This document shows, one piece after another, positions 997 to 18,686 of a stretch of 33,188 bases of DNA; the first letter of the stretch is position 1; every line of letters begins with the position of its first letter. The DNA is taken from assembly GCA_028284705.1 (NCBI GenBank), contig JANQRE010000034.1, positions 1 through 33,188 on the forward strand, given 5' to 3'. Both the position numbers and the translations under genes were made by a program. Source of the DNA: Paracoccaceae bacterium. Its GTDB lineage: Bacteria > Pseudomonadota > Alphaproteobacteria > Rhodobacterales > Rhodobacteraceae. The notes under the pieces are model-generated. The model was given only the letters and a program-made list of their open reading frames with translations. It was not told where the DNA came from and made no database searches.

Positions 997-1977
997 TCAC
1001 GTGGTTCGTTGCCATGGGGTTTCGGGGATATCCATCAGGTCGCGTCCGAAGCAGCGCTGGTAATATTCGGCGAATATCTCGCGTTCGGCCTCATCGCAGC
1101 GGTTGAGGAAGCCGACGCGAAAGGCGTGGTCGATATCGCCGAAGCGCTGGACGTTTTGCGCCCAGGACAGAACCGTTCGCGGGCTCATCACCGTCGAGAC
1201 ATCCCCCGCCTGAAAGCCAACGCGGGTCAGTCCCGCCATGCGGATCATCTGCGGCAGGGCCGCGTCCTCCGCCAGCCAGGGGGCTTTGGCCGAGACCATC
1301 GCCAACTCATTTTCCGGCGACAGATAGTCGAGCCGGACCGTGACATCCCAGCGATCGAGTTGCGCCTGATTGAGCTGCTGGGTGCCGTGATAGAGGCCGG
1401 TGATGTCGCCCAAGCCGATGGTGTTGGCGGTCGCAAATAGCCGGAAAGAGGCATGCGGTGAGAGGACCTTGTTCTGGTCCAGAATGGTCAGACGCCCCTC
1501 TGCCTCCAGCACGCGCTGGATAGCAAACATCACATCCGGACGCCCGGCGTCATATTCGTCGAAGACCAGCGCGACGGGGCGCTGGAACGCCCAGGGCAGC
1601 ATGCCTTCGCGGAATTCCGTCACCTGCTTGCCGTCGCGCAGCACGATGGCGTCTTTGCCGATCAGATCGATGCGAGAAATGTGGCTGTCGAGGTTGATCC
1701 GCACACAGGGCCAGTTGAGGCGTGCGGCGATCTGCTCGATATGGCTGGATTTGCCGGTGCCATGCGGGCCCTGCACCAGAACCCGCGCATTGCTGGAGAA
1801 CCCGGCAAGGATCGCCATGGTTGCGCCGGGGTCGAAGAGATAGCCCTCATCGATGGCCGGAACATGCGGCGTCGGTTCGCCATAGGCGGGGGCCATGCCA
1901 TCGACATCGATGCCGAAGGTCTCGCGAATGGAGACCTCGCCATCCGGCATGTCGGCGGGCAGATCCGAGGTAGTCAT
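997..1977 (-). CDS. CobS-like AAA+ ATPase (MoxR/CobS family), catabolic-operon paralogue
   Basis: A 326-residue protein that resembles cobaltochelatase subunit CobS along its whole length. It has the N-terminal SIRETFGID segment (16-24), Walker A GPHGTGKS (70-77), the block LDSHISRIDLIGKD (96-109), Walker B LVFDEYD (137-143), FATANTIGLGD (181-191) and the C-terminal AEYYQRCFG (303-311). Known role: CobS forms an ATP-driven ring with the VWA protein CobT and works on the chelatase CobN in aerobic B12 synthesis. No cobN or other cob gene is in the window. The gene sits inside the hydroquinone operon and overlaps the Rieske gene by 4 bases (ATGA). Its likely partner is the CobT-like protein at 13540-15396. 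A metal-insertion or activase role for a dioxygenase is inferred. A true B12 role cannot be excluded without the rest of the genome. Confidence 0.88.
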   Translation of the reverse strand: MTTSDLPADMPDGEVSIRETFGIDVDGMAPAYGEPTPHVPAIDEGYLFDPGATMAILAGFSSNARVLVQGPHGTGKSSHIEQIAARLNWPCVRINLDSHISRIDLIGKDAIVLRDGKQVTEFREGMLPWAFQRPVALVFDEYDAGRPDVMFAIQRVLEAEGRLTILDQNKVLSPHASFRLFATANTIGLGDITGLYHGTQQLNQAQLDRWDVTVRLDYLSPENELAMVSAKAPWLAEDAALPQMIRMAGLTRVGFQAGDVSTVMSPRTVLSWAQNVQRFGDIDHAFRVGFLNRCDEAEREIFAEYYQRCFGRDLMDIPETPWQRTT

Positions 1978-2393
1978 GCGGTGTCGAGCTCATCCGGGGT
2001 GGCGATGTAGACCGTATCGCCTTTGACCAGAACCGGCACAGGGTCGAGCCAGCAGCGCTCTGCCGCGCCGGAGACGCCATAGCCGTCTTCGACCCGGAAC
2101 TCGGCAAAATGCATCGTGCAGCGAATGCGCGTACCGTCATCGTTCATGAACGCACCTTTGCGGTAATTCAGCGGCTGGGAGTAATGCGGGCAGAGGTTGA
2201 GATAGCCATAGACCCGATCCCCGCCCTGCCGCACGACGAACATGGAAAACACCGTGGTGCCGCGTCCGAAGACGTACTCCTTGGCCTGACCAAGCTCGAT
2301 CTCGTCCAGGGGGCCCAGTTCCGTGCCGGGTTTCGGGGCGCGCGGACGGGTGCGCCAGAGCCAGGGATCGGGTTTTGAAATCGCGTCAGCCAT
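1974..2393 (-). CDS. Rieske [2Fe-2S] protein
   Basis: A 139-residue soluble protein with one Rieske centre: CPH (C68, H70) and CTMH (C92, H95). The spacing between the two halves is 21 residues, longer than the 15-17 usual in small Rieske ferredoxins, because of the insert around KGAFMNDDGTRI. There is no signal peptide or membrane segment and no catalytic mononuclear-iron domain, so it is an electron carrier rather than an oxygenase alpha subunit. The start overlaps the YCII gene by 8 bases, and the stop overlaps the CobS-like start by 4. No reductase or Rieske oxygenase is present in the window. By analogy with XylT, the ferredoxin that re-reduces catechol 2,3-dioxygenase, it may keep the iron of HapCD ferrous. 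That role is inferred. Confidence 0.88.
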   Translation of the reverse strand: MADAISKPDPWLWRTRPRAPKPGTELGPLDEIELGQAKEYVFGRGTTVFSMFVVRQGGDRVYGYLNLCPHYSQPLNYRKGAFMNDDGTRIRCTMHFAEFRVEDGYGVSGAAERCWLDPVPVLVKGDTVYIATPDELDTA

Positions 2394-2691
2394 GACCGGC
2401 CTCCAATTGCGTCAGGCCCCAGGCGAAGGGGTGAATGGACAGGGTGCCATAGACGCCGGCTTGGACGTAGGGGTCGCCATCGACAAAGCGCTTAACGGCG
2501 CTCCGGCTTTCCGCTTCGACAATCAGCAGCGTGCCGCACATCTCACCGCCATCATTCAGGAGCGGCCCGCCTACGCGCACTGTCAGCGGGTGATCGTGAT
2601 CACGCAGCCGGTCGCGATGGGCGGGGCGGTTCTTCGCCCGTGCCTCGGCACTTTCCGGCCCGTCCAATGCGTGAACCACGAAATAGGCCAT
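2386..2691 (-). CDS. YCII-family small enzyme
   Basis: A 101-residue protein with the YCII/YciI pattern: an N-terminal beta strand (MAYFVVHALDG), a conserved His in RPAHRDRL (H25) and the DGDPY motif (D73). The family has a ferredoxin-like fold related to muconolactone isomerase and uses a His/Asp pair. The pathway-relevant known member is TftG, which dechlorinates 5-chlorohydroxyquinol next to a hydroxyquinol dioxygenase (TftH) in Burkholderia. Here too the gene directly follows hydroxyquinol 1,2-dioxygenase, with a TAATG one-base overlap. It may act on a substituted hydroxyquinol, a hydroxybenzoquinone or a lactone in this pathway. The exact reaction is unknown. Confidence 0.8.
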   Translation of the reverse strand: MAYFVVHALDGPESAEARAKNRPAHRDRLRDHDHPLTVRVGGPLLNDGGEMCGTLLIVEAESRSAVKRFVDGDPYVQAGVYGTLSIHPFAWGLTQLEAGHG

Positions 2692-3521
2692 TAGGAGAGC
2701 TTTTTGAGTGTCACGTCAAAATCGGCTTTCCATCCGTCGCCGTCAGGTTCGAACTCCACGATGAGGCTTTCCTTCACGCCGAAGACAGCATCGCTTTCAA
2801 GATAGGGATCGCCCTTCACGAAGATATGGGTCACAAGCTGCTCATAACCCGGCGCGTCGACGATGTAATGGATATGGGCCGGACGCATGGCATGCCGTCC
2901 CATCGCATCCAGCATGCGCCCGACCGGTCCATCGGTCGGGATCGAATAAGGCAGCGGTTTGACGGTGATGAAATCGTAGCGCCCATCCGCGTCTGAGGTG
3001 AACAGGCCGCGCATATTCATATCGGGCTGAACCCCGGGCTGCTGGACGTCATAAAACCCGTCATCATTGGTTTGCCAGACATCGATCTTCGCTCCAGCGA
3101 TGGGGTTGCCGTTTTCATCGGTCACACGACCCGTGACGGCGCAAGGCGCGCCCTTCCCATCAAGGCAAATCGTATCGCCATTCTCGCGCACAGGCGCTTT
3201 GGCCACGTGGAACGGGCCGAGCACTGTGTTCTCCGTGGCACCATCCGGTCGGCGGTGATTGATCGCGTCGACCAGCATGGAGACCCCGAGCGTATCCGAC
3301 GCCAAGACCCATTCCTGACGTTTGTCATCGCACATCTGACCTGTTGCGGTGAGAAACTGGATGGCTTGCCCCCATTCCTCGACCGTCGGTTCCACCTCTT
3401 TGATGAAGCCGTGCAGGTGTTTCACCGCCGCTTGCATCATCTCGCGAAACCGAGGCTCGACATCATCCGCCAGGCGGGACAGCACAGCGGCTTCAGATCC
3501 ATCTTCTGTGAAGTAAGACAT
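2691..3521 (-). CDS. hydroxyquinol 1,2-dioxygenase (intradiol, Fe(III))
   Basis: A 276-residue intradiol dioxygenase. The N-terminal helical dimerisation part (about 1-100) ends in ATENTVLGPFHV, a stretch typical of hydroxyquinol rather than catechol enzymes. The C-terminal beta-sandwich carries the four iron ligands: Y157 (GFYDVQ), Y192 (PLPYSIP), H216 and H218 (RPAHIH). Known reaction: hydroxyquinol plus oxygen gives maleylacetate, the same intermediate made by the Hap branch of this operon, so both feed the maleylacetate reductase at 8210-9271. It lies 4 bases after livM and overlaps the YCII gene. Catechol 1,2-dioxygenase is a less likely alternative. Confidence 0.88.
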   Translation of the reverse strand: MSYFTEDGSEAAVLSRLADDVEPRFREMMQAAVKHLHGFIKEVEPTVEEWGQAIQFLTATGQMCDDKRQEWVLASDTLGVSMLVDAINHRRPDGATENTVLGPFHVAKAPVRENGDTICLDGKGAPCAVTGRVTDENGNPIAGAKIDVWQTNDDGFYDVQQPGVQPDMNMRGLFTSDADGRYDFITVKPLPYSIPTDGPVGRMLDAMGRHAMRPAHIHYIVDAPGYEQLVTHIFVKGDPYLESDAVFGVKESLIVEFEPDGDGWKADFDVTLKKLS

Positions 3522-3525
3522 GGGT

Positions 3526-4548
3526 TCAGTCCTTCTCTGTGATGAGGCGGCGTCCGACGGGGAAGAGGTTGATATCCCATTTGTCCGAGATCAGACCCCA
3601 GATGCCGCGCGGGGCGAAGAGCATGGTGGCCACAGCAATTCCGCCGAGCACGATCAGATACCAACTGCCCCAATCGGCAGCGATTTCGCGCAAAAGGAAG
3701 AAGACGATCACGCCGATGATCGGGCCCTCGATGGAGCCGATCCCGCCGATGACGACGATGAAAATCACAAGCGCGGTCCAGTCTTGCACCGAGAAGGCGG
3801 CATCTGGCGAAATCCGCAGCTTCTGCAAAAAGATGAGCGCGCCGACGAGACCGGTCATGCCCGCAGCGGCGACATAAACGAGAAACTTGGTGACATAGGT
3901 TTCGACACCAAGGCTCTCAGAAGCCGTCTCGCTGTCGCGGATCGCGGTCATCGCCAGACCCCAGCGGGAGCGCAGAAGCAGGAACACCATCAGAATGGAG
4001 CCAAGCGCAATGGCCAGCGCGATCCAGTAGACAAGGTGTTCGCGCCCCGACCGGCTTTCAGCGATGCTCCGGACAATGGAGGCGGGCAGCGACATGCCCG
4101 ACCCTCCGCCAAGCGCGCTCACCTGCGCGAACCCGAGGCGGAACACTTCTGCGATGACCCAGGTTCCGATGGCAAAATAGGCACCGGTCAGCCGGAAGGC
4201 GACGAAGGCCGTCGGGATGGCCACAAGCGCCGTGATCACGCCGGCCAGCACCAGTGCCAGGATCGGGTTCACCCCGCCAAACGCGGCAAGCGCAAAGAGC
4301 ATGTAGCCGCCAAGCCCGACAAAGGCCTGCTGCCCGACGGACACGAGACCGCCATAGCCCGCCAGCAGGCTCCACATCTGCGCAAGCGCCAGGTAATAGA
4401 AGATCTCCACCATCATGCGCAGATCGCCGCGGCTGGCCCAATAGGGCGCCAGCGCCAGACCGATGACGATGAGAACACCGACCGTCATCGCGACGCGCGA
4501 GGCTTTGGTCGATCTCTGAACCGTGTAGGACATGCTCATCTGCGTCAT
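3526..4548 (-). CDS. livM: Liv-type ABC transporter permease LivM
   Basis: A 340-residue very hydrophobic protein with roughly ten membrane segments. It has the LivM-family stretches SLLAGYGGLVSVGQQAFVG (about 60-79) and GGIGSIEGPIIG near residue 290. It pairs with LivH to form the membrane channel of a branched-chain amino acid-type importer. The start overlaps the livH stop in ATGA. Because the transporter genes sit between maleylacetate reductase and hydroxyquinol dioxygenase in one overlapping operon, the cargo is probably an aromatic substrate or pathway acid rather than leucine or valine. That specificity is inferred from position only. Confidence 0.93.
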   Translation of the reverse strand: MTQMSMSYTVQRSTKASRVAMTVGVLIVIGLALAPYWASRGDLRMMVEIFYYLALAQMWSLLAGYGGLVSVGQQAFVGLGGYMLFALAAFGGVNPILALVLAGVITALVAIPTAFVAFRLTGAYFAIGTWVIAEVFRLGFAQVSALGGGSGMSLPASIVRSIAESRSGREHLVYWIALAIALGSILMVFLLLRSRWGLAMTAIRDSETASESLGVETYVTKFLVYVAAAGMTGLVGALIFLQKLRISPDAAFSVQDWTALVIFIVVIGGIGSIEGPIIGVIVFFLLREIAADWGSWYLIVLGGIAVATMLFAPRGIWGLISDKWDINLFPVGRRLITEKD

Positions 4549-5411
4549 CCTTTCATCTTGGGAAAGAGGCCCTGTGGTTTGACCACGAGGACGATGAGGA
4601 AGGCGATGTGACCGGCCAGGATTTGCAGACCCGGATCGATCTGCGCGCCGATGGTCTGGGCAACGCCAAGGATGATCCCGCCCGCAAGCGTACCCCAGAG
4701 ATTGCCAAGCCCGCCGATGATCACCGCCTCAAAGGCGAAAAGCAGGCGCGCGGGGCCGACCGAGGGGTCGAAATTCGTGCGCATCGCGAGATAGACGCCT
4801 GCGATCCCGACCACGGCACTGGCAATCGCGGTGGCGTAACCGAAGATCTTCGCGTTGTCGGCCCCCATCAGGCGCACGGTGTCTTGGTCGTCGGATGTGG
4901 CCCTCAGCACGCGGCCCAGCGAGGTTCTGTAGAAAAACGCCTGCAAGCCGCCGATCACACCGAGCGCTGAGAGGAAGATTAGAAGCGGCATGAGCCCAAT
5001 ATTCAGCCCCTCGGCGATCTGGATGGAGGCCGTCTCCAACGCGCCCGCTTGCAGCTTTTGGCTATCCGCGCTGAAAACCTCCAGAAGCACGTTTTGGATG
5101 ATGATCGAAAACCCGAAGGTGACCAGAAGCGGCGGCAGGATGTCATCGCCCAGCGTTCGGTTCAGCAAAATTCGCTGACCGAAATACCCCATCAACGCCA
5201 GGCCCGGGACGACCACGATCATCGACAGAAGCGGGTGAACGCCGGTGAAGGTCACCGCCAGAAGCGCGCCATAGGCCGCCATCACGATGAAATCACCATG
5301 GGCGATGTTCACGAACCGCATGACCCCGAACATCAGGCTGAGGCCCGCCGCGAAAAGCGCGTAAAGCCCGCCCAGCAGGATGCCCTGCACGATTGCGTTG
5401 ATCCAATCCAT
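4545..5411 (-). CDS. livH: Liv-type ABC transporter permease LivH
   Basis: A 288-residue integral membrane protein. The N-terminus GGLYALFAAGLSLMFGVMR followed by FVNIAHGDF is diagnostic of LivH, and the C-terminal GGLGNLWGTLAGGIILG is the usual EAA-like region contacting the ATPases. It is the second half of the channel with LivM. Its start shares one base with the livF stop (TAATG) and its stop overlaps the livM start (ATGA), so translation is coupled through the transporter genes. The imported compound is inferred to be an aromatic or organic acid of the hydroquinone pathway. Confidence 0.93.
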   Translation of the reverse strand: MDWINAIVQGILLGGLYALFAAGLSLMFGVMRFVNIAHGDFIVMAAYGALLAVTFTGVHPLLSMIVVVPGLALMGYFGQRILLNRTLGDDILPPLLVTFGFSIIIQNVLLEVFSADSQKLQAGALETASIQIAEGLNIGLMPLLIFLSALGVIGGLQAFFYRTSLGRVLRATSDDQDTVRLMGADNAKIFGYATAIASAVVGIAGVYLAMRTNFDPSVGPARLLFAFEAVIIGGLGNLWGTLAGGIILGVAQTIGAQIDPGLQILAGHIAFLIVLVVKPQGLFPKMKG

Positions 5412-6133
5412 TACTGCGCCCCTTCCGCTTCGAGCCCAAAATAGGCCGCTGAAATCTCATCTTTGGTGAGGGTGGTCGGCGTGCCGGTGAGCGACACGCG
5501 GCCCTCCTGAAAGCAGTAGACCCGGTCGGCGACGGCGAGCGCCTGATTGATGTCCTGTTCGACAACGATCATCGTGGCGCCGGTCGCTTTGATCTTCGGC
5601 ACCGCCTCGTAAATGTCCTTGATGATGATCGGCGCGAGGCCGAGGCTGATCTCATCGCAGAGCAGCAGTTTCGGGTTCGACATCAGCCCACGCCCGATCG
5701 CGACCATCTGCTGCTGCCCGCCGCTGAGCTCCGTGCCGCCATGGTGGCGGCGCTCTTTGAGGATCGGGAACAGGTCATAAATCGTCTCCAGCGTCCAGTC
5801 GGAGCCGGACCGCCCATAGGCGCCGATCATCAGGTTTTCCTCGACAGTAAGGGACGGGAACAGCTTGCGTCCTTCCGGCACCATGGCGAGCCCCTGTTTC
5901 ACAAGGCTGTGGGCCGTCGCTCCACCAACGGGTTTGCCGAGGAACTGGATGTCCTGGCCTTGGGTTTTCAGCATACCGGTGATCGAGCGCAGGAAGGTCG
6001 ATTTGCCTGCGCCGTTGGAGCCGATAATAGCGATGGTCTCGCCCTCATGGATCTCAAAATCGATCCCGAAAAGCGCCTGGAAATCGCCGTAGAAGGCCTC
6101 AAGGCCCTTGGTTTGAAGAATGGGTTCAGGCAT
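5411..6133 (-). CDS. livF: Liv-type ABC transporter ATPase LivF
   Basis: A 240-residue ATPase with Walker A GSNGAGKST (about 38-46), the signature ELSGGQQQM and Walker B LLLCDEISLGLAP, then the H-loop-equivalent region VVEQD that is characteristic of LivF. It energises import together with LivG. The start codon lies 8 bases inside the end of livG. Length and motifs are normal, so it appears functional. Confidence 0.93.
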   Translation of the reverse strand: MPEPILQTKGLEAFYGDFQALFGIDFEIHEGETIAIIGSNGAGKSTFLRSITGMLKTQGQDIQFLGKPVGGATAHSLVKQGLAMVPEGRKLFPSLTVEENLMIGAYGRSGSDWTLETIYDLFPILKERRHHGGTELSGGQQQMVAIGRGLMSNPKLLLCDEISLGLAPIIIKDIYEAVPKIKATGATMIVVEQDINQALAVADRVYCFQEGRVSLTGTPTTLTKDEISAAYFGLEAEGAQ

Positions 6134-6854
6134 CGGCTTCGATCCCCATGTAAATCTGTTTGATCTCAGGTGAGTTCATCACTTCATGCGGATCGCCATC
6201 GGCGATCTTCGCCCCGAAATTGATGACGATCAGCCGCTCAACCACCGCCAGAAGCGCATGCACAATATGTTCGATCCAGATGATCGAAACGCCGGAGGCA
6301 TGGATGTCCTTGATGGTGGCGACCAGCGAGTGGCATTCCTGTTCGGTCAACCCGCCCGCGATCTCATCAAGCAGCAGAAGTTTGGGATTGGTGGCGAGTG
6401 CGCGGGCCATCTCCAGCCGCTTGCGCTCCAGCAGGCTCAGGCTCCCGGCGCGATTGTTGGCTTTCGGCAGAAGCCCCGTCTTATCAAGGACTTCGACGCA
6501 GCGGTCATAGCTTTCCTTCTCCGGCACGCTATCGCCGAACGCCCCACCCACAAGCAGGTTTTCGAAGACCGTCATGCCGGCGAAAGGATGCGGGATCTGA
6601 TAGGACCGCCCGATCCCCATACGGCAGCGTTTCGCGGCACTCAGGCCCGTCACATCGCCGCCGTCATAGCGGATCTCGCCCTTATCGGCCTTCACACCAC
6701 CGGCGATCAGGTTGAACATGGTGCTCTTGCCCGCGCCGTTCGGCCCGATCACACCAAGCGCCTCGCCTTGTTTGAGCGAAAAGCTGAGATCGTCGGTCAC
6801 GGTCAGCGATCCGTAACTTTTTGACACTCCGCTTAAGGTCAGCATGTCTTGCAT
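6126..6854 (-). CDS. livG: Liv-type ABC transporter ATPase LivG
   Basis: A 242-residue ATPase with Walker [10 protein letters not shown], the LivG-type signature region [17 protein letters not shown] in place of a plain LSGGQ, Walker [11 protein letters not shown] and an IEH H-loop. The C-terminus [16 protein letters not shown] is typical of LivG. The start at 6854 is supported by AGGAGG six bases upstream. It is separated from the binding-protein gene by 57 bases that hold a strong hairpin, while the downstream livF overlaps it. Confidence 0.93.
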
Positions 6855-6876
6855 CTTGTCCCTCCTGCCAGTGATT

Positions 6877-6901
6877 GGACCCCGCTTGGGGCGCGGGGCC
6901 C
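6877..6901 (-). other. intercistronic stem-loop between binding protein and livG
   Basis: In the transcript a 9-bp stem (GGGCCCCGC pairing with GCGGGGUCC, one G-U pair) closes a 7-base loop, right after the binding-protein stop. No run of U follows, so it is not a classical terminator. Such hairpins after binding-protein genes commonly protect the 3' end of the upstream message and raise binding protein over membrane components. That role is inferred. Confidence 0.6.
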
Positions 6902-6911
6902 GATCTGATCT

Positions 6912-8195
6912 TTAGGAAATGGCTTCCATGTCGCCGCCCAGCGGCACATCAGGCGCATCGCCATTCGCGGTGACGACCATGTCGTATTTGAAGTCACCGC
7001 CGAGCCGCCATTGACCGCCCACGAGCGGGGTTTTGGAGACATTTGGCACGGGTCCGTTCTGGAAGTTCACCGGTCCGACAACGGTGTTCATGTCGGTCTC
7101 GGCCAGCGCGTCACGCACGCGGTCATAGTCGGTCGGATCGCCGGAGCGCTTCAGCGCGTCCGCCGCCACTTCAAACAATGCGTGGGCAAAGCCGATGGGT
7201 TGGGTCCATTGCCGCCCGGTCGCCTCGGTGTAGCCATCGGCCACGTCTTTCGCGCTTTGGCCCGAGATCGAGGAGCTGAACGGGTGTGTGGGCGTCCACC
7301 AGACCTCGGAGCTGAGATTCTGCCCGGCATCACCAAGCGCTTCGACGGTCACCGGGAACAAGAGCGCCTTGCCCATGCTGGCCACTTTTGGCGCGTAGCC
7401 CTGTTGCTTAGCCTGGGTCCAGAAGGTGGTGAAATCGGGCGGGATCATCACGCCGGTGACGATCTCGGAACTGGCGTTCTTGAAGGCCGAAATCTGGGCC
7501 GAGAAATCGTCACTGAGGTTCTGATAGCGGCCGGGATCGGTCAGCTCAAACCCCTGCGCGGCAAGCGGTTTCGGGAAGCCGAGTTCGGGGTCGCCCCAGG
7601 CATTGCCGTCGCCATCATTGGGGAACAGGCCGCCGACGGATTTGTTGGTGTCGACCTTGCCCCACATCTCGGTGAAGACAGAGATGACATCCTCAAGGCC
7701 CCAGAAGAAATGGTAAGTATATTCAAACCCTTCCGCGGGATTGCCGCCGCGGGTGAAGAACCAGGGCTGCCACGGCGCGACGGTAGAGATGCAGGGCACG
7801 CCGTTGATCTCGCATTGGTCGGAGACCGGGTTCGTGGTCTCCGGCGTGGAGGAGACGACCATGAGGTTCACCTCGTCATCGAGGATCAGTTCCGCCGCCA
7901 CATCCGCTGCCCGGTTGGGGTTGGACTGGCTGTCCTTCACGATCACCTCGACCCCATAGGTGGAGCCGTCAATCTCGATACCGTCGGCAAAGGCCGCGTT
8001 GATGCCTTCCAGGATGTAGTCATCGCTTTCGGCGAACCCGGCCAGCGGGCCGGTTTTCGGGCTGACAAAGCCGATCTTGATCATGCCGTCCTGCGCGTGG
8101 GCCATGCGCGTGAAGCTGAGCGTCGAGACCACGGCAGCGCCTGCAACACCGGACTGGATCAGGCCGCGGCGAGTGATGGTGGTTGAGCGTTTCAT
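6912..8195 (-). CDS. Liv-type periplasmic substrate-binding protein
   Basis: A 427-residue protein with a twin-arginine-like leader (TRRGLIQ, R9-R10, hydrophobic stretch, AHA at 32-34 before the probable cleavage). The mature part starts with DGMIKIGFVSPKTGPLAGF, typical of type 1 periplasmic binding proteins of the branched-chain amino acid/amide/aromatic group. The start at 8195 has GGGAGG nine bases upstream. It follows maleylacetate reductase by 14 bases and heads the livGFHM genes. It presumably captures the transported ligand in the periplasm. Position in a hydroquinone operon suggests an aromatic ligand; the sequence alone does not identify it. Confidence 0.9.
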   Translation of the reverse strand: MKRSTTITRRGLIQSGVAGAAVVSTLSFTRMAHAQDGMIKIGFVSPKTGPLAGFAESDDYILEGINAAFADGIEIDGSTYGVEVIVKDSQSNPNRAADVAAELILDDEVNLMVVSSTPETTNPVSDQCEINGVPCISTVAPWQPWFFTRGGNPAEGFEYTYHFFWGLEDVISVFTEMWGKVDTNKSVGGLFPNDGDGNAWGDPELGFPKPLAAQGFELTDPGRYQNLSDDFSAQISAFKNASSEIVTGVMIPPDFTTFWTQAKQQGYAPKVASMGKALLFPVTVEALGDAGQNLSSEVWWTPTHPFSSSISGQSAKDVADGYTEATGRQWTQPIGFAHALFEVAADALKRSGDPTDYDRVRDALAETDMNTVVGPVNFQNGPVPNVSKTPLVGGQWRLGGDFKYDMVVTANGDAPDVPLGGDMEAIS

Positions 8196-8209: not shown

Positions 8210-9271
8210 TTAAGAAACGGTTGGGCGACGGCCTTCAAACGCCGCCTGAAGCATCTCGCGCACGCCGTCTTTCGTGACGGGGCGCGGGTTGTAATAGGGG
8301 TTTTGCACGGCCAGCTCGGAGGCCTTGTCGAGATCGGCTTCGCTGAGGCCCATCTCTTTGAGCGATGTCACCTGACCGACCGATTGCAGCAGGTCATAGA
8401 GGCCACCGGCCGCATCGTCCGTGCCAAGCGCGCGGGCAATCGCCGCCATCGCTTCGGGGGCGTCATCGCGGTTATACGCCGTCGAATAGGCGATCATCAG
8501 GCTGTGCACATTGGCGTGGTTGAGATCGAAGGTGCCGCCCAGCGTGTGGCAAATCTTGTGATGGATCGCCATGCCGACAGAGCCAAGGCAGGCCCCTGCG
8601 AGCCACGCGCCATAAAGCGCCTTCTCGCGGGCTTCCATATCGGAGCCATCCTTCATCAGCGGCGGAAGCGCTTCACCAAGCGCCTTGATGCTGGCCTCCG
8701 CCATCATCGAGATGATCGGATTGCGATCCTCGGCATAAAGCGCCTCGACCGCATGGGCGATGGCATTCATACCCGAGGGCCCGGAGATGAAATCAGGCAG
8801 CGTTTTGGTCAGCTCCGGGTCGTAGATCACCGTCTCCGGCAGGACCTTCTCGGAGCGCAGCGTCGTCTTCAGACCCTTCTCGGTCTGCCCGAGGATCGGG
8901 GTCATCTCGCTGCCCGCATAGGTCGTGGGCACGACGACTTGCGGCAGATCGGTGCGGTAGGCGATGGCCTTGCCCAACCCGATGGTCGAGCCGCCACCCA
9001 CAGCCAGAATGCCGTCACAATCCATCTGCCGCATCTGCAGCATCGCGCTTTCTGTCACATCGACGGGCGTGTGCATGACCGCGCCCGGATAAACAGCGCC
9101 CAAGCGGTCTTCGATCATCGCGGCGAACTGCGCCCCGGTCGAGGATTGGTCCGCCGTCGAGAGCACAAGCGCGCGCTTGATCCCCAGACGCGCCAACTCG
9201 TCCTTGACCGTCTCGCGCGTGCCGGATCCGAAGATCACCCGCGCCGGGAGAGCGTTGTAGACGAACTCCAT
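8210..9271 (-). CDS. hapF: maleylacetate reductase (hapF-like)
   Basis: A 353-residue group III (iron-type) alcohol dehydrogenase-fold protein beginning MEFVYNALPARVIFG. It has the nucleotide-binding GGGST (92-96) and the PTTYAGSEMTPILGQTE stretch characteristic of maleylacetate reductases, plus the His-rich segment IHHKICHTLGG. Known reaction: maleylacetate is reduced by NAD(P)H to beta-ketoadipate. Two branches here make maleylacetate: HapCD plus the semialdehyde dehydrogenase, and the intradiol dioxygenase. A start 31 codons upstream is rejected because those codons overlap the small Cys-rich gene in another frame and are not family sequence. The chosen ATG shares its A with that gene's TGA. 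Confidence 0.92.
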   Translation of the reverse strand: MEFVYNALPARVIFGSGTRETVKDELARLGIKRALVLSTADQSSTGAQFAAMIEDRLGAVYPGAVMHTPVDVTESAMLQMRQMDCDGILAVGGGSTIGLGKAIAYRTDLPQVVVPTTYAGSEMTPILGQTEKGLKTTLRSEKVLPETVIYDPELTKTLPDFISGPSGMNAIAHAVEALYAEDRNPIISMMAEASIKALGEALPPLMKDGSDMEAREKALYGAWLAGACLGSVGMAIHHKICHTLGGTFDLNHANVHSLMIAYSTAYNRDDAPEAMAAIARALGTDDAAGGLYDLLQSVGQVTSLKEMGLSEADLDKASELAVQNPYYNPRPVTKDGVREMLQAAFEGRRPTVS

Positions 9272-9384
9272 CACCGGGCGTCCTTCTCCGTCTTCAGCGC
9301 CGCAAGCACTTTGTCGAGGCGCGAGCAGGTGCCGAGTTTCGCTTTCGGGCATTTGCCGCAACATGCTGTCTCTGATTTGGCCAT
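9271..9384 (-). CDS. 37-residue cysteine-rich small protein, unknown function
   Basis: The short frame begins MAKSETACCGKCPKAKLG and has four cysteines (C8, C9, C12, C20) in a CCxxC-x7-C pattern, then a basic amphipathic tail ending KTEKDAR. It has a good ribosome binding site (AAAGGAG, six bases before the ATG), begins 17 bases beyond the aldehyde dehydrogenase stop, and its stop overlaps the maleylacetate reductase ATG as TGATG. These three points support real translation. The cysteine cluster suggests binding of zinc, an iron-sulfur cluster or iron, or a thiol role against quinones. I know of no named family for it. It could instead be only a leader peptide that couples translation. Confidence 0.7.
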   Translation of the reverse strand: MAKSETACCGKCPKAKLGTCSRLDKVLAALKTEKDAR

Positions 9385-9400
9385 GACGGGCTCCTTTCGC

Positions 9401-10909
9401 TCAGCGCTCGTAGTGAGGGGGGATTTGGGCATCGACATTGACCCAGACGGATTTGGCCTGGGTGTATTCGTTCATCACCTCAAACCCCATTTCGCGCCCG
9501 TAGCCGCTTTCGCCAACGCCACCGAAGGGGGAGGCGGGATGCACAACCTTGTAGGAATTGATCCAGACCATCCCGGCCTTGATCTCGCGCGCAAACCTGT
9601 GGGCGCGGCTGAGGTTCTGGGTCCAGAGACCCGAACCCAGCCCGTAGATCACGCCATTGGCCATCTGCAGCGCTTCTTCATCGTCAGAGAAGGTCGAGAT
9701 CGTCACGAAGGGGCCGAACACTTCTTCCTGACACACCCGGCTGCTCATGTCGGCCCGCACGATGGTGGGTTCCACGAAACAGCCATTGGCCAGCTCGGGA
9801 TCATCGGGGGCCTTGCCGCCGCAGATGATCTCCCCGCCCTCCTGTTCCGCGATCTTGGCGTATTCGAGCACTTTCTCCTGGTGCATCTTGGAGGTGAGCG
9901 GCCCCATTTCCGTATTGGAATCCATCGGGTTGCCAAGCCGGATCGACTTGGCGAGGGCGGCGAATTTCTCGGTGAATTCGTCTGCCACCTTCTCATGCAC
10001 GATGAGGCGGCTACCGGCGATGCAGGCCTGGCCCTGATTGTGGAAAATCGCCCAGGCCGAACCACCGATGGCGGCGGGAAGGATCGCATCGTCAAAGACG
10101 ATGTTCGGACCCTTGCCGCCCAGTTCCAACTGCACCTTTTTCAGATTGCCTGCCGAGGCTTCGACGATACGACGACCGGTGGCGGTCGATCCGGTAAAGG
10201 CGATCTTCTTGATATCCGGGTGGGAGGAGAGCCGCGCGCCAGCGGTGTGGCCATAGCCCGGCACCACGTTGACGACGCCATCAGGGATACCGACTTCCTT
10301 CATCAGTGCGGCAATACGCAGCGTGGAGAGCGGTGTGATCTCCGCCGGTTTGATGACGATGGCGTTCCCTGCAGCGAGCGCGGGCGCCATCTTCCAGCTT
10401 GTGAACATCAGCGGGAAGTTCCAGGGCACGATCTGCCCGACGACGCCTAATGCTTCGCGCTGCACATAGTTAATGAAGCCGGGATAGACCGGTGGCAGCG
10501 AGCCTTCGACCTTGTCGGCCATGCCACCGAAATAACGGAAGCACCGTGCCGTGCGCGGCACGTCGAGCTTGCGCGCATCGCGGACGGGGTGTCCTGTGTC
10601 GAGCGCCTCAAGTTTGATCAGTTCTTCGGCATTCGCCTCAATCGCGTCGGCCAGTTTCAGAAGCAATTGCCCACGATCAGCGGCATCCATCCGCGCCCAG
10701 GCCGGTTGCGCCGCTTTGGCCGCTTCAACCGCTCGGTCCACGTCCTCCTCGCGCGCCTCGGCAATGTCGCAAATCTTCTTGCCATTGAAGGGGTTGAGTA
10801 CCTCGATTGTGCCACCCGCCGCGGCATCGACAAATTCTCCATTGATGAAAAGCTGCGTGTTGATCGGTGCCGTCAGCCCGGCAATTTCAATTTCCGAATG
10901 AACTGTCAT
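9401..10909 (-). CDS. hapE: 4-hydroxymuconic semialdehyde dehydrogenase (hapE-like aldehyde dehydrogenase)
   Basis: A 502-residue NAD(P)-dependent aldehyde dehydrogenase. Visible are the oxyanion Asn in VPWNFP (N164), the general base in LELGGKGPN (E262) and the nucleophile in NQGQACIAG (C296). The family is broad, but a gene directly between hydroquinone dioxygenase and maleylacetate reductase is expected to oxidise 4-hydroxymuconic semialdehyde to maleylacetate. The start at 10909 (MTVHSEIEIAG) is chosen over an ATG three codons earlier because GAGGAG stands nine bases before it and directly abuts the earlier ATG. It is separated from hapD by about 100 bases containing a hairpin. Confidence 0.88.
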   Translation of the reverse strand: MTVHSEIEIAGLTAPINTQLFINGEFVDAAAGGTIEVLNPFNGKKICDIAEAREEDVDRAVEAAKAAQPAWARMDAADRGQLLLKLADAIEANAEELIKLEALDTGHPVRDARKLDVPRTARCFRYFGGMADKVEGSLPPVYPGFINYVQREALGVVGQIVPWNFPLMFTSWKMAPALAAGNAIVIKPAEITPLSTLRIAALMKEVGIPDGVVNVVPGYGHTAGARLSSHPDIKKIAFTGSTATGRRIVEASAGNLKKVQLELGGKGPNIVFDDAILPAAIGGSAWAIFHNQGQACIAGSRLIVHEKVADEFTEKFAALAKSIRLGNPMDSNTEMGPLTSKMHQEKVLEYAKIAEQEGGEIICGGKAPDDPELANGCFVEPTIVRADMSSRVCQEEVFGPFVTISTFSDDEEALQMANGVIYGLGSGLWTQNLSRAHRFAREIKAGMVWINSYKVVHPASPFGGVGESGYGREMGFEVMNEYTQAKSVWVNVDAQIPPHYER

Positions 10910-10974
10910 TGGGCACATCTCCTCTGTTCGCAGACGAGCGCCTGCGCGACTTATGCTTGCGTTCTTGAATGTCG

Positions 10975-10998: not shown

Positions 10999-11011
10999 GG
11001 CAGCCTTTCGT

Positions 11012-12046
11012 TTAGAAGTTCACCGCGACATTGGGCGCCTTACCGTCGCGGATCAGCTCCGGAATTTTCGGCGAGCCGTTTTCCCAGACCAGCAGCATGG
11101 AGCGTTTTGGCGAGAACCCCTGGTGCCGGATATTCGCCGGCATGCAGGCCACATCGCCCGCTTTCATGTGCACGACCGCTTTGGGACGCCCGGTCTCCCC
11201 ATCTTTGATGTTCCAGGTGATCTGGTCGGAGAGCTGGATGAACCACTCGCAGCGGTCATTCCCATGCTCAACGGGCAGGATGTATTCCTCAGACGTTGGG
11301 CAGAACAGGCTGTCCTTGACGACAGAGCAGACCGAGGGGTTCCAGGTCACATCCGAGCGGGACAGGTAGCCAAACAGGTTGAACGCCTGCACTTCGTGCT
11401 CATAGCCCGGTTCGGCATGCACTTCCGGCTGATCCTGATCCACGTCATCGAACATGACATTCACCGGATAGCCATTCTCATCGGTGCGCACTGGCGTATC
11501 TCCGGGCAGACCCACCATGCGGCGGGCGGTGACGCGCTGGCGGCTGACCGCGTCGTCATTGTCGCCATTCTTGGTCCCCCAGGGCGTGCCCGTTTCACGC
11601 GGCGCGGCGAAGGGATCAAAACCCTCAATCGTCCAATCCGAGATCATGCCCTTGAAGATGTCCATCAACTCGTCGGACTTGAACCGCTCGACGTAATCCT
11701 GACCTTCGGCGGCATAGGCCTCGTTCAGCGCGCCATAGAACATGTCCACTTCGCCATAGTAATTGGTCGTGCCGAACACCTGGTCGAAATTCACGGTGCC
11801 ATAGAAGAAGCCCCAGGCCACATCGCGCATCAAAGCGCGCAGGAACACATCGACAGACATCGTATGCGTGCCCTTAGGCGTTTCGATATAGGCAAAATAT
11901 TCGTCGCGGCGGAATTTGAACTTGCCTGCCTCGAAGGACTTGTAGCCCGTCACGTTGTCGGCCGGGTTCGTCACGAAATGCGCCTCCAGCGGCAGGCCGC
12001 GGGGGTTGCTGATTTCGCCATTCTCGGCTGTTTCTTTCATCGCCAT
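11012..12046 (-). CDS. hapD: hydroquinone 1,2-dioxygenase large (iron-binding) subunit
   Basis: A 344-residue cupin-like protein, about 38 kDa, the size of HapD/PnpD. It carries the unusual iron ligand pattern His-x-Asn-x3-Glu in HGNDRCE (H261, N263, E267) with the distal His in NIRHQGF (H308), as described for the PnpCD enzyme of Pseudomonas. Known reaction: Fe(II)-dependent extradiol-type cleavage of hydroquinone to 4-hydroxymuconic semialdehyde. It needs the small subunit encoded just upstream (22-base gap). GAGGAG eight bases before the ATG supports the start. The ferrous site of this family is prone to oxidation, which is relevant to the accessory genes of the operon. Confidence 0.93.
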   Translation of the reverse strand: MAMKETAENGEISNPRGLPLEAHFVTNPADNVTGYKSFEAGKFKFRRDEYFAYIETPKGTHTMSVDVFLRALMRDVAWGFFYGTVNFDQVFGTTNYYGEVDMFYGALNEAYAAEGQDYVERFKSDELMDIFKGMISDWTIEGFDPFAAPRETGTPWGTKNGDNDDAVSRQRVTARRMVGLPGDTPVRTDENGYPVNVMFDDVDQDQPEVHAEPGYEHEVQAFNLFGYLSRSDVTWNPSVCSVVKDSLFCPTSEEYILPVEHGNDRCEWFIQLSDQITWNIKDGETGRPKAVVHMKAGDVACMPANIRHQGFSPKRSMLLVWENGSPKIPELIRDGKAPNVAVNF

Positions 12047-12068
12047 CTCTAAATCTCCTCGTCCGCGG

Positions 12069-12572
12069 TTATTGCTTGCAGAATTGTGCCCATTTGTGCT
12101 GGGTCACAGGTCCATCGATTGTCTGGATCATCACGGTCGCCGCTTTGTTGGCAACGAAACGGTAGGCGGAGCCCACAGGCAGCATCGCCATATGGCCGCG
12201 GCTCAGTTTGACATACCCCATCTTCTCGCCGACCGGATCACCGTCGATCAGATGCGCGCCTTCACTTTCGGGGTCCACCACGGCATCGGGGTCATCCAGC
12301 TTCACGAACTCGACGGTGACCGGATAGTCCATGGCGACGGCAAACTCGTCGTGCGCGGCGGTGTACCAGGGCGAAGTGCCCTCAGCCCGCATGCTCTCGA
12401 TGGCGTATTCGAAGTTCTTCGCTACGGCGACGCGTTCATTCGCGCCCGACTTGGCCGCAACCTCATACATGTTCGAGAACACGTAATTCTTCGGGTTGTC
12501 CTGGCTGATGACGGTGATGCCACCGCTGTCATACTCGTCAATCTGCGCAAAATCTGTGGTATACTGGCTCAT
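12069..12572 (-). CDS. hapC: hydroquinone 1,2-dioxygenase small subunit
   Basis: A 167-residue protein, about 18 kDa, matching the HapC/PnpC alpha subunit of two-component hydroquinone dioxygenase in size and in gene order (small subunit first). It has a cupin-like C-terminal half (GYVKLSRGHMAMLPVGSAYRF) but lacks the His/Asn/Glu iron set seen in HapD, so it is the non-metal partner. It is the first gene of the long minus-strand operon, with a strong AGGAGG seven bases upstream of the ATG. Upstream lie four operator-like repeats shared with the divergent IclR gene. Confidence 0.92.
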   Translation of the reverse strand: MSQYTTDFAQIDEYDSGGITVISQDNPKNYVFSNMYEVAAKSGANERVAVAKNFEYAIESMRAEGTSPWYTAAHDEFAVAMDYPVTVEFVKLDDPDAVVDPESEGAHLIDGDPVGEKMGYVKLSRGHMAMLPVGSAYRFVANKAATVMIQTIDGPVTQHKWAQFCKQ

Positions 12573-12608
12573 ATTTATTCCTCCTATCGATGCGGGGCTC
12601 GGATTTTT

Positions 12609-12623
12609 GTTCGTATTCCGAAC
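12609..12623. promoter_or_regulatory. IclR-type operator, copy 1
   Basis: GTTCGTATTCCGAAC is a perfect inverted repeat of GTTCG with a 5-bp spacer. It resembles the PcaR/PobR-class boxes (GTTCG...CGNAC) bound by IclR-family regulators of aromatic catabolism. It lies 36 bp upstream of hapC. Confidence 0.7.
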
Positions 12624-12627
12624 GTGT

Positions 12628-12642
12628 GTTCATATTGCGAAC
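12628..12642. promoter_or_regulatory. IclR-type operator, copy 2
   Basis: GTTCATATTGCGAAC, one arm mismatch from the GTTCG-N5-CGAAC consensus. Its start is exactly 19 bp from copy 1, forming a pair on the same helical arrangement as copies 3 and 4. Confidence 0.7.
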
Positions 12643-12662
12643 CTGACTGACTGCGTTATGAT
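12635..12662 (+). promoter_or_regulatory. possible sigma70 promoter of the IclR/CobT-like operon
   Basis: TTGCGA, a 16-bp spacer, then TATGAT, reading toward the IclR gene. The -35 overlaps operator copy 2, which would allow autoregulation. It is read by eye only. Confidence 0.35.
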
Positions 12663-12683
12663 GCGTCAACAGATGACAGCCAA
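12655..12683 (-). promoter_or_regulatory. possible promoter of the hap operon
   Basis: On the minus strand TTGGCT, a 17-bp spacer, then CATAAC (each 4 of 6 consensus bases). Operator copies 3 and 4 would lie just upstream of the -35, an activator position, and copies 1 and 2 downstream of the start site. The weak match suits an activator-dependent promoter. Tentative. Confidence 0.3.
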
Positions 12684-12687
12684 ATAA

Positions 12688-12702
12688 GTTCGGAATGCGG
12701 TC
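12688..12702. promoter_or_regulatory. IclR-type operator, copy 3
   Basis: GTTCGGAATGCGGTC: a perfect left arm and a degenerate right arm (CGGTC for CGAAC). It pairs with copy 4 at 19-bp spacing. Confidence 0.6.
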
Positions 12703-12706
12703 ATTT

Positions 12707-12721
12707 GTGCGGAATGCGAAC
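12707..12721. promoter_or_regulatory. IclR-type operator, copy 4
   Basis: GTGCGGAATGCGAAC: right arm perfect, one mismatch in the left arm, with the same GGAATG core as copy 3. It lies 35 bp upstream of the IclR start codon. Confidence 0.65.
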
Positions 12722-12756
12722 AAAATTGACGGTGGGAAGAGAGCAAAGGAACGAAA

Positions 12757-13536
12757 ATGGGTGTTGTAGAGCGCATTGATCCTTCGAATCGCGACTTCGT
12801 GGGCTCCTTGGAAAAAGGGTTGCGGGTCATTCGCACGTTCAATTCTGGCGAAGAGAAAATGACCCTGTCGGATGTGGCGAAGGCCTCTGACCTGCCCAGA
12901 GCCGGGGCAAGGCGGCTTCTTTTGACGCTGAACGCGCTTGGATATGTTTCAACCGACGGCAAGTATTTTGAGCTTGCACCCAAGGTCCTCGAACTCGGCT
13001 TCTCTTACCTGGCCTCTCAGAACTGGCTGTCTGTCGCCTCGCCAATCCTCGAAAAACTCCGGGATGAACTGGACGAAGCGGTGTCGATCACGACGCTGGA
13101 AGGCACCGAGGTAGTCTATGTGGCGCGCTTCCCGGTGGATCGCGTGATGACCATGGCGATGGATATCGGATCGCGCAAACCGGCTTACTGCACCGCCATG
13201 GGGCGCGTGCTGCTTAGCACTTTGCCCGAAACAAAGATGCGCGAAATTCTGAACGAGTCCGAGATGACCGCCCTGACAAGCCGCACCCTCCACGATGTCA
13301 ACGCGGTCGCGCAGGAGATCAAACATGTACGCGAGAAAGGCTATTGCCTGATTGATCGCGAGCTTGAGGACAGCCTGGTCGCCCTGTCGGTGCCGCTGAC
13401 CAACTACCATGGCGAAACGCTCGCGGCGGTGAATGTCTGCGGGCATCCCAGCAACCTCTCGCTGGATGATTTGGAAACCCGGTGCCTGCCAGCCTTGCAA
13501 TGCGCCACGAAAGAGATCGCCTCGATCCTCGTCTGA
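12757..13536 (+). CDS. IclR-family transcriptional regulator of the hap locus
   Basis: A 259-residue regulator of the PcaR/PcaU/PobR type. It has an N-terminal winged helix (about 14-75, with FVGSLEKGLRVI and the recognition region ASDLPRAGARRLLLTL) and a C-terminal IclR effector domain (about 85-259) with CTAMGRVLL and YCLIDRELEDSLVALSVPL. It is transcribed divergently from hapC, and the shared 184-bp region holds four matching palindromes, so it most likely controls both units. Members of this group sense aromatic substrates or beta-ketoadipate-type intermediates; which one applies here is unknown. AAAGGAA precedes the ATG. The CobT-like gene begins 3 bases after its stop, so the two are probably co-transcribed. 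Confidence 0.92.
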   Translation: MGVVERIDPSNRDFVGSLEKGLRVIRTFNSGEEKMTLSDVAKASDLPRAGARRLLLTLNALGYVSTDGKYFELAPKVLELGFSYLASQNWLSVASPILEKLRDELDEAVSITTLEGTEVVYVARFPVDRVMTMAMDIGSRKPAYCTAMGRVLLSTLPETKMREILNESEMTALTSRTLHDVNAVAQEIKHVREKGYCLIDRELEDSLVALSVPLTNYHGETLAAVNVCGHPSNLSLDDLETRCLPALQCATKEIASILV

Positions 13537-13539
13537 CCC

Positions 13540-15396
13540 ATGCCCTCTGACATTCGCAGCACGGCCCAGAAGAAAGATGACAAGGGCCGGGTGCGTCACG
13601 GCGGCGAGTGGCTGGCGATCTGGTCCGATCCCGACAGTCTGAAAAGCGATGCGGAGCGGCGCGAAGAGGCCGCGGTTGATCGGGATATCCAGGCGCGACA
13701 GACCGCTTTGGCCGCCTCCGCACGATCCATGTCCGGTCAGGCCGATCTTGAGGTCCGCTTTGGCGATGGTGCGGGGGAGGCCGCGATTTCCTTGCCGATG
13801 CTGGATCGGGACGGTGCCGATCGGAGTGCAATACGCGGCAATGCCGACGCGCAAGCGATGTTCATCCGCTTCCACGACCCTGAGATACATAGCTCCCACC
13901 GCCCAGACGGACCGGTTGCCGGGCGGTTGTTTGATCTGATCGAACGCGCCCGCTGCCATGGGCTCGGCGCCGCGCGGTTCGCCGGGGTCGAGGCCAATCT
14001 GATCGCCTTTCAGATCGCCGATCTCGAGCGCCGAGACCTGATGAACGCGCATCTTGCCAGCCTCGTGCCCATCGGCGAGGCGCTTCGCATGGTGTTCCGG
14101 GATGTCTTTGCCGGACGGGTCGAGGCCTCCATTCAAACCGCCGGGCTGCGCAATTGGGATCGCTGGTTGCGTGACCGATATTCCGAACACCTCTCGCGGC
14201 TGGTCTCCGTCCGAGCCGATCAGGCGGAGTTCGCCTCTCGCGCAAACGCGTTCCTCGCCGCCCTTCTCGCGGAACTGCCGACAGGGGGCGAGATCGACCG
14301 TCTTCTGTCACCCACGGCCCCCGACGCCGATCATCAGGATGGCGACGGGCATTTGCGAGAAACCGATGAGGCCAGTCTCGCCGACCTTTGGGAGCCCGGC
14401 GATGCCAATATGCCGGAAGATGCGCCCGACACAGTTGCGGCACCGTCCCGCGCCCCAGCACCGCCTACGCCCTACGCCGTCTTCACGTCTCGCCACGACA
14501 GGATCGTGGACGCCGCCGATCTTGCGGATCGGGCCACATTGAACAAAGCCCGCAGGGCGCTCGACGAGAAGCAGGCCGATCTCAGGCGCGATATCGCCCG
14601 TCTCTCCCTGCGCTTGCAACGCACTTTGATGGCGCGGCAGATGCGCCGCTGGGAGTTCGATCAGGATGAAGGGCTGATCGATGCATCGCGCCTCGACCGG
14701 GTGATCGTGAAGCCGGGCTTCACAAGCTGCTACAAGCAGGAGTCCGACAGCCCGTTTCTGGACACCGTCGTCACGCTCCTGATCGACAATTCGGGATCGA
14801 TGCGCGGCAAACCGATTGAAACGGCCTGCGTGGTGGCGGATGTATTGGCCGCTGCATTGGAACGCTGTTCCATCGCAACCGAAGTTCTGGGCTTTACTAC
14901 CCGTAACTGGAAAGGCGGGCAGGCATTCAAGGACTGGGTCGCCGTCGGTCGGCCCGAAAATCCGGGCCGCCTGAATGATCTTTTGCACATCGTCTACAAG
15001 GACGCGCAAACCCCTTTGCGCCGCGCCCGCGACTCTCTCTGCGCCATGCTGACACCAGGCGTTCTGAAGGAAAACATCGACGGCGAGGCACTCCACTGGG
15101 CAGCGTCCCGACTTTTGTCCCGCCCCGAGCAGCGCCGCATCCTGATCGTCATCTCAGACGGTGCGCCGGTCGATCAGGCAACGCTCAATGAGAACGCCGA
15201 TCAGACGCTTCTGTTCCGGCACCTGCAGGACATCATCCGGTGGATCGATCAGGAGACCAATATCGAACTTTCCGCCATCGGGATCCGCCACGATCTAAGC
15301 GACCTCTATCACCGCGCGGCCAAGATCAACGACACCAAGGAGCTCGGCACGGTTCTGATCCATGCCTTGGACGCGATGCTGCAAGGGCGCTCTTGA
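13540..15396 (+). CDS. CobT-like VWA-domain protein, partner of the CobS-like ATPase
   Basis: A 618-residue protein of CobT architecture. An N-terminal CobT domain (about 35-255) is followed by a short acidic linker rich in Asp/Glu (about 262-298) and a C-terminal VWA domain (about 405-618). The VWA domain has the MIDAS sequence DNSGSM (416-421) and the SDGAP loop (539-543). CobT-type blocks include RRWEFDQDEG, LGFTTRNWKGGQ and LKENIDGEAL. Known: CobT works with the CobS ring and CobN to insert cobalt. No CobN is encoded here, the CobS-like partner lies in the divergent catabolic operon, and this gene follows the pathway regulator by 3 bases. This suggests a pair dedicated to this pathway, comparable in principle with the NorQ/NorD and CbbQ/CbbO activases. 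The client is unknown. No clear ribosome binding site is seen, so coupling to the IclR gene is likely. Confidence 0.88.
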   Translation: MPSDIRSTAQKKDDKGRVRHGGEWLAIWSDPDSLKSDAERREEAAVDRDIQARQTALAASARSMSGQADLEVRFGDGAGEAAISLPMLDRDGADRSAIRGNADAQAMFIRFHDPEIHSSHRPDGPVAGRLFDLIERARCHGLGAARFAGVEANLIAFQIADLERRDLMNAHLASLVPIGEALRMVFRDVFAGRVEASIQTAGLRNWDRWLRDRYSEHLSRLVSVRADQAEFASRANAFLAALLAELPTGGEIDRLLSPTAPDADHQDGDGHLRETDEASLADLWEPGDANMPEDAPDTVAAPSRAPAPPTPYAVFTSRHDRIVDAADLADRATLNKARRALDEKQADLRRDIARLSLRLQRTLMARQMRRWEFDQDEGLIDASRLDRVIVKPGFTSCYKQESDSPFLDTVVTLLIDNSGSMRGKPIETACVVADVLAAALERCSIATEVLGFTTRNWKGGQAFKDWVAVGRPENPGRLNDLLHIVYKDAQTPLRRARDSLCAMLTPGVLKENIDGEALHWAASRLLSRPEQRRILIVISDGAPVDQATLNENADQTLLFRHLQDIIRWIDQETNIELSAIGIRHDLSDLYHRAAKINDTKELGTVLIHALDAMLQGRS

Positions 15397-18679: not shown

Positions 18680-18686
18680 AATCAAC

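Follow-up and report, generated by a model that had tools for sequence, protein, structure and literature searches.

The 33,188-nucleotide stretch of Paracoccaceae bacterium DNA analysed here (the window) carries a hydroquinone-degradation (hap) locus that contains two genes for proteins of the cobaltochelatase families CobS, a AAA+ ATPase, and CobT, a protein with a VWA domain and a metal ion-dependent adhesion site (MIDAS). The window is one whole contig (C13) of the host assembly, a 98.7% complete genome of 4.04 Mb in 50 contigs, and its GC content of 0.609 compares with 0.596-0.636 for the other host stretches read. Fourteen genes, separated by intergenic gaps of -8 to 93 bases, form a minus-strand run in the order HapC, HapD, aldehyde dehydrogenase, Fe-ADH, binding protein, LivG, LivF, LivH, LivM, intradiol dioxygenase, YciI, Rieske protein, CobS, and BKACE. 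As number 13 of the 14 genes in this hap operon, the CobS-like gene overlaps the Rieske gene by 4 bases and is spaced 7 bases from BKACE, the last. On the divergent plus-strand arm, the stop codon of an IclR-type regulator gene is followed after 3 bases by the start of the CobT-like gene. The GC content at third codon positions (GC3) of both genes resembles that of their neighbours.

An initial annotation of this DNA had placed a CobS-like reading frame at 997-1977 in the hap operon; the frame exists there, but on the minus strand, the plus-strand reading being broken by stops. Its full-length CobT-like MIDAS protein 3 bases past the regulator was borne out (plus strand, 618 amino acids). As it had also stated, no CobN or other B12 family besides CobS/CobT occurs among the 31 open reading frames of the window scanned with Pfam, overlapping shadow frames left out.

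997..1977, minus strand: CobS-like AAA+ ATPase, 326 amino acids; Pfam CobS_N and AAA_5; TIGR01650 at 484.5 bits (cut-off 558.55)
13540..15396, plus strand: CobT-like VWA/MIDAS protein, 618 amino acids; Pfam CobT and CobT_C; TIGR01651 at 465.3 bits (cut-off 759.05)
12757..13536, plus strand: IclR-type regulator of the PcaR/PcaU/PobR family; TIGR02431 at 303.2 bits, above the cut-off of 284.75
12069..12572, minus strand: HapC-like small subunit of hydroquinone 1,2-dioxygenase, named from position and homology; no Pfam match
11012..12046, minus strand: HapD, large subunit of hydroquinone 1,2-dioxygenase; PnpCD_PnpD_N; PDB 5m21_B at E 1.8e-163
9401..10918, minus strand: aldehyde dehydrogenase by family match, probably 4-hydroxymuconic semialdehyde dehydrogenase (substrate from context)
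8210..9364, minus strand: Fe-ADH family protein by family match, probably maleylacetate reductase (substrate from context)
3526..8195, minus strand: branched-chain-type ATP-binding cassette (ABC) uptake system (LivM, LivH, LivF, LivG, and periplasmic binding protein), by family matches
2691..3521, minus strand: intradiol ring-cleavage dioxygenase, probably hydroxyquinol 1,2-dioxygenase; Dioxygenase_C and Dioxygenase_N
2386..2691, minus strand: YciI-family protein (Pfam)
1974..2393, minus strand: Rieske [2Fe-2S] ferredoxin-like protein (Pfam); CxH...CxxH at residue 68
150..989, minus strand: beta-keto acid cleavage enzyme (BKACE), final gene of the operon (Pfam)
15580..17208, plus strand: GMC oxidoreductase (Pfam), the next gene past CobT after a 183-base gap

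HapD carries an H-x-N-x3-E motif plus a later histidine (H261, N263, E267, and H308), which we take to be the positions of the iron ligands. The Rieske ferredoxin-like protein is a possible reductant for reactivating ferric HapCD. Promoters and terminators around the IclR-CobT genes showed no excess over shuffled sequence. Positions 17429-33098 form a second catabolic region, seemingly unrelated to the hap genes, with a sugar-type ABC transporter, a TetR regulator, a PfkB kinase, a CoA transferase, ECH, SDR, and DUF993 proteins, sugar-isomerase-like, enolase-family, and thiamine pyrophosphate enzymes, and a D-lactate dehydrogenase.

Conserved motifs and predicted structure

The Walker and MIDAS motifs, which the initial annotation had described as intact, are all present. 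The CobS-like protein carries GPHGTGKS at residue 70 (Walker A), VFDEYD at 138 (Walker B), ATAN at 182, DRW at 208, and SPRT at 265, and the CobT-like protein carries the MIDAS motifs DNSGS at 416, GFTT at 451, and SDG at 539; we take these motifs to have their AAA+ and MIDAS roles. The ATPase keeps the hallmarks of the AAA+ half of an AAA+/VWA pair, and its partner has the VWA domain, the MIDAS, and a finger segment, the last a low-confidence part of the structure model. The VWA region (residues 408-614) has a predicted local distance difference test (pLDDT) score mostly of 70-88, and its best fold matches are to the NorD chains of NorQD complexes and to the MIDAS domains found in Rea1/MDN1. 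The segment at about 368-407, which we read as the finger, is present with its conserved residues retained; the solved CobT construct 21vt in the PDB is without the equivalent stretch, as a finger would predict. The start codon of CobT was accepted as the ATG at 13540; residues 1 to about 45 are unmatched in most homologues, and an internal start at GTG 18, TTG 57, or ATG 64 is possible.

Separation from the B12 genes of the host

Genes of this kind are annotated as ‘cobalt chelatase’ or CobS/CobT, and are hence read as B12 genes. For the window pair this is very likely wrong, because the host has canonical CobS-CobT, CobN, and BchH elsewhere. Contig C24 encodes a CobS of 585 bits and a CobT of 823 bits, both over the NCBI cut-offs, in the gene order BolA, DnaJ, CobS, CobT that is also found in annotated relatives (with one intervening gene in one of them). 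CobN lies on C45 (TIGR02257, 1606 bits), with a CobO/BtuR-family gene 0.8 kb beyond it. A second CobN/BchH-family protein, on C35, is BchH (TIGR02025, 1434 bits; cut-off 829), and is followed by BchL (TIGR01281, 436 bits; cut-off 345). The window pair scores below both cobaltochelatase equivalog cut-offs (484.5 against 558.55 bits and 465.3 against 759.05 bits) and the C24 pair above both; the window pair is also not the sole CobS/CobT at the disposal of the host CobN. The search for another cobS/cobT in the host genome, in turning up the C24 pair together with CobN on C45, upheld the initial view that the window pair is not the B12 chelatase of the host, and its candidacy as the host B12 genes was rejected. 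In another part of the host genome (L003), a NorQ-like AAA+ gene lies beside a NorB-like gene; both were named by eye, NCBIfam at 1e-30 giving no match.

The pair has also diverged from the canonical subunits. Canonical here denotes all rows of the host class (inferred to be Alphaproteobacteria) except the window, the presence of CobN not being individually checked, and lengths were filtered before counting (CobS 300-480 amino acids, CobT 560-700), with the CobT of L067 kept for the tree only. The window CobS departs at 17 of 144 columns invariant in 29 such rows (leave-one-out maximum 3), and the window CobT at 28 of 140 columns invariant in 57 rows (leave-one-out maximum 4), which places the pair outside the canonical members by their invariant residues. 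It has the longest terminal branch in both trees, 1.84 against a median of 0.14 in the CobS tree, whose bootstrap had not settled, and 3.04 against 0.15 in the CobT tree, which was built by a quick method. Identity to homologues is mostly 61-66% for CobS and, among full-length matches, 36-42% for CobT. The CobT linker (window residues 236-310) has 75 amino acids and a net acidity of 13, compared with 96-108 amino acids and a net acidity of at least 15 (median 37) in 57 other rows. Linkers that are short or only weakly acidic also occur outside CobN-free genomes: that of L109 has 96 amino acids and a net acidity of 8, and the L109 pair lies about 11 kb from a CobN-family gene that scores below cut-off.

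Search for relatives and for recurrence with hap genes

HapD was found in one of 295 genomes of the family (the host alone), in 10 of 385 of the class including the host, and in eight of 11 genomes of one other family, four of them already counted, which gives 13 hap-containing genomes besides the host. A HapC homologue adjoins HapD in all 13 (identity 44-58%), the LIV-type transporter is shared with 10 of these loci, and a Rieske homologue occurs in eight, all from one family. No CobS/CobT gene was found around hapCD in any of the 13 loci, the stretches read extending roughly 10 kb to either side, or to the contig end where that came sooner. In their fetched stretches BKACE and GMC had no match, and YciI no significant one. 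Of the 13 genomes, 12 have a single CobT, 41-45% identical along the full length or 51% in the C-terminal half; the remaining genome, 93% complete, has none. A general linkage of CobS/CobT with hapCD was accordingly rejected, and the recurrent linkage to the enzyme served that would mark an activase pair of the NorQD/CbbQO kind is absent for hapCD (0/13); the initial annotation had itself counted the lack of a recurring linkage of the pair's clade with dioxygenases as a refutation of its proposal. The hap-linked CobS/CobT clade that it had envisaged did not emerge either, no relative above about 45% full-length identity having been found in the searches made.

Searches for the window CobT in 398 genomes of the phylum gave, among the matches listed (best first), no relative above about 45% over the full length, the C-terminal half alone reaching 55%. 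Among 72,556 plasmids, 941 records had a CobT match, all below 60% and the best full-length one at about 40%. A scan of genome contigs with six exact 8-residue peptides, which relatives of 50-70% identity could escape, gave a single locus, with 40% identity and a score that makes it canonical. On a 308-kb viral contig (IMG/VR; L127:5842-6684), a CobT-type VWA domain is 47% identical to window residues 405-614.

CobS/CobT-like pairs in other catabolic loci

In a sample of 250 beta-type genomes, whose order is inferred to be Burkholderiales-like from named tree neighbours and best matches, a relative of CobT with an E value no higher than 1e-30 was found in 10. Eight of these were assigned by best match, not by tree, to a taurine-type group that includes pairs of Caballeronia, Burkholderia multivorans, Cupriavidus, and Photobacterium; four members of this beta/gamma group form a starred clade in both trees (that of CobT being the quick one), with the window pair outside. 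Among the eight genomes, xsc occurs in six, a DAO-type FAD oxidoreductase together with a protein of SnoaL/NTF2 type in five, and an IclR gene within the fetched stretch in seven. No CobN-family match was found in four of the eight (G1035, G1489, G1248, and G1310, 99-100% complete); two others have a CobN over the cut-off and two a match under it, and members with CobN do exist (G1135, G1186). These CobN-free genomes suggest that the B12 reading of CobS/CobT-like pairs has been wrong repeatedly.

The 11 CobT rows of the taurine-type group depart from 51-69 of 139 canonical invariants. Of the 28 departures of the window CobT, 17 are common to this group (expected 8.7, hypergeometric P 2.5e-4), as are four of the 17 in CobS (expected 1.1, P 0.012). 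This sharing is only suggestive, as the canonical rows are all from the host class and columns vary in tolerance.

The loci themselves are varied. In taurine-type loci (L011, L012, L015, L067, and L111-L118) the pair is tied to IclR, xsc, pta, the DAO-type FAD oxidoreductase, and SnoaL/NTF2 genes. L116:3901-16827 has no xsc, DAO, or IclR gene, and its pair is flanked by two sulfatase genes, a gene of the formylglycine-generating-enzyme family lying nearby. The pair at L110:1547-11062, in a genome without a CobN match, has as neighbours a lyase, an Asp/Glu racemase-like protein, FAD_binding_2, and an M24 peptidase. On a Pandoraea plasmid (L013:5392-12850), ureE-ureG-cobS-cobT is divergent from ureDABC, ureF not being in the stretch read; this CobS/CobT may replace or supplement urease maturation functions. 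The window is thus not alone in having a CobS/CobT-like pair in a catabolic locus, and some of the other pairs likewise occur without CobN, but the window pair is outside those groups.

Proposed role and alternative explanations

We propose that the pair is probably a CobS/CobT-derived AAA+/VWA remodelling machine outside cobalamin synthesis, the client of which would most likely be an enzyme from the hap locus. A machine with a non-B12 client is preferred because the pair is distinct from the B12 set and its link with hap genes is not recurrent. Both genes are intact, keep their motifs, lie in the hap operon (CobS) and the arm divergent from it (CobT) apart from the host B12 set, and fall outside the constraint seen in canonical members. 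We infer the assembly of the ring, the pairing of the two proteins, and the client, and assume a NorQD-like mode of working. CobS would form an ATPase ring; the VWA domain of CobT would dock on this ring and put its finger into the pore; CobT would then be moved by ATP turnover against a client held by the MIDAS or the N-terminal domain; and the client would be opened so that metal could be inserted or a dead-end ligand released, a mode of action that has been proposed for NorQD. Iron insertion by NorQD requires the NorD finger (PMC13036017). A precedent for CobS/CobT without CobN is the taurine-type group, in which four of the eight sampled genomes are without a CobN-family gene.

Several observations weigh against this proposal. 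An electron microscopy study of the B12 CobS/CobT reads the complex as a two-tiered hexamer (PMC7689651), so that the NorQD-like geometry is an extrapolation. Solved CobT chains are absent among the 50 fold matches listed for the window CobT, the finger is of low confidence in the CobT model, and the CobS model failed (mean pLDDT 47). The acidic fraction of the linker, 0.21, equals the lowest canonical value. The N-terminal half of CobT shows no excess divergence (25% vs 29%), and N-terminal divergence as a sign of retargeting was rejected on these figures. A second CobT occurs in none of the 13 other hap-containing genomes, and none of the matches listed (best first) from 390 genomes of the order exceeded about 45% full-length identity to the window CobT. 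Finally, the window cobS and cobT are 11.6 kb apart on opposite strands, and cobS precedes cobT by about 0.7 kb or less in L011-L015, L046, L065-L068, and L109-L118.

As to the client, one tentative alternative, which we rate below the general proposal but above the others, is a protein of the locus that is missing from other hap loci (the GMC oxidoreductase, BKACE, or YciI), with which the pair would have arrived. BKACE lies directly 3' of CobS at 7 bases, GMC is the next gene after CobT, and for none of the three did the stretches fetched around hapCD in the 13 other genomes give a significant match; a remodelling pair acting on a redox enzyme has a parallel in RavA-ViaA, which modulates the fumarate reductase complex (PMC10585395). 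However, those stretches are limited, the GMC gene is 183 bases away from CobT, and no relative of the pair was found in which co-occurrence with any of the three could be followed. It is unlikely that the client is encoded elsewhere than in the hap locus.

Equally unlikely, in our estimate, is the initial suggestion that the pair inserts iron into, or clears an inhibitor from, HapCD or the intradiol dioxygenase. In its favour, the CobS gene shares an operon with HapCD. A native hydroquinone dioxygenase is reported to lose activity to O2, with partial recovery on addition of Fe(II)/ascorbate, and to be inactivated, apparently irreversibly, by hydroquinone itself (PMC3222310); NorQD inserts non-haem iron (PMC13036017). 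The suggestion nevertheless found no support. The pair is absent from all 13 other hap-containing genomes, which nonetheless keep HapCD and much of the operon, and methylhydroquinone is turned over in vitro by PnpCD and NpcCD produced in Escherichia coli, Fe2+ being added in the case of PnpCD (PMC4879640). The intradiol enzyme occurs without the pair in L057, and the Rieske protein found in eight of the 13 loci could reduce ferric HapCD more simply. Titles and abstract openings in the open-access literature, a scope outside which most subscription papers lie, yielded no report of a pair of the CobS/CobT type that acts on a dioxygenase or belongs to a taurine or urease locus; two hits proved to be a gene-list entry (PMC4334477) and a remark on B12 genes (PMC2265553). 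A broader version is slightly more doubtful still: CobS/CobT would have split repeatedly from CobN into a general catabolic activase, in taurine/sulfoacetaldehyde, urease, sulfatase, and here hydroquinone loci, and would here keep a ring-cleavage iron dioxygenase metallated or rescue it from substrate inactivation.

We consider it improbable that the pair was acquired by chance with its neighbours and is neutral, decaying, or without current function. The single occurrence and the long branches would fit such an origin, but both reading frames are full length with all motifs kept despite identities of 36-42% (CobT) and mostly 61-66% (CobS), gene junctions are overlapping or tight, and GC3 is like that of the neighbours. 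Least probable of the readings named, besides which a small share of the odds falls to others, is that the two are spare chelatase subunits working with the host CobN or BchH: they belong to the chelatase families with motifs kept, and the host has both large subunits, but they score below the equivalog cut-offs, have lost 17 and 28 canonical invariants and part of the linker, and lie beside a PcaR-type regulator in a host that has its own canonical pair.

Comparison with known systems

The window pair resembles the cobaltochelatase CobS/CobT (TIGR01650/TIGR01651; PDB 9uka, 21vt, 21vu) in domain architecture, Walker and MIDAS motifs, and the finger segment, but differs in the absence of CobN from the locus, the short linker, the scores below cut-off, and the lack of the BolA-DnaJ-CobS-CobT context. 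With NorQ/NorD and CbbQ/CbbO, in which a MoxR-type AAA+ protein has a VWA partner, it shares the two-protein logic, and NorD is the top fold match of the modelled VWA region. In contrast to NorQ, the window ATPase is a CobS by sequence (448 bits as CobS vs 44 bits as NorQ). The accessory genes of NorQ/NorD and CbbQ/CbbO sit beside the enzyme that they serve.

The taurine-type beta/gamma group is similar to the window in its nearby IclR gene (7/8), catabolic context, short linker, absence of CobN (4/8), and 17 shared CobT departures, whereas its cobS and cobT lie side by side, its pathway is one of xsc and the DAO oxidoreductase, and it forms a separate tree branch. The other hap/pnp hydroquinone dioxygenase operons have hapC, hapD, the aldehyde dehydrogenase, and Fe-ADH in common with the window, together with the LIV-type transporter (10/13) and the Rieske protein (8/13); unlike the window, none of the 13 examined contains CobS/CobT. 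If such pairs are activases, they would offer new and unstudied clients for the kind of mechanism represented by NorQD and CbbQO, and the substrate inactivation of hydroquinone dioxygenase reported in PMC3222310 is a fault that a machine of this kind might repair.

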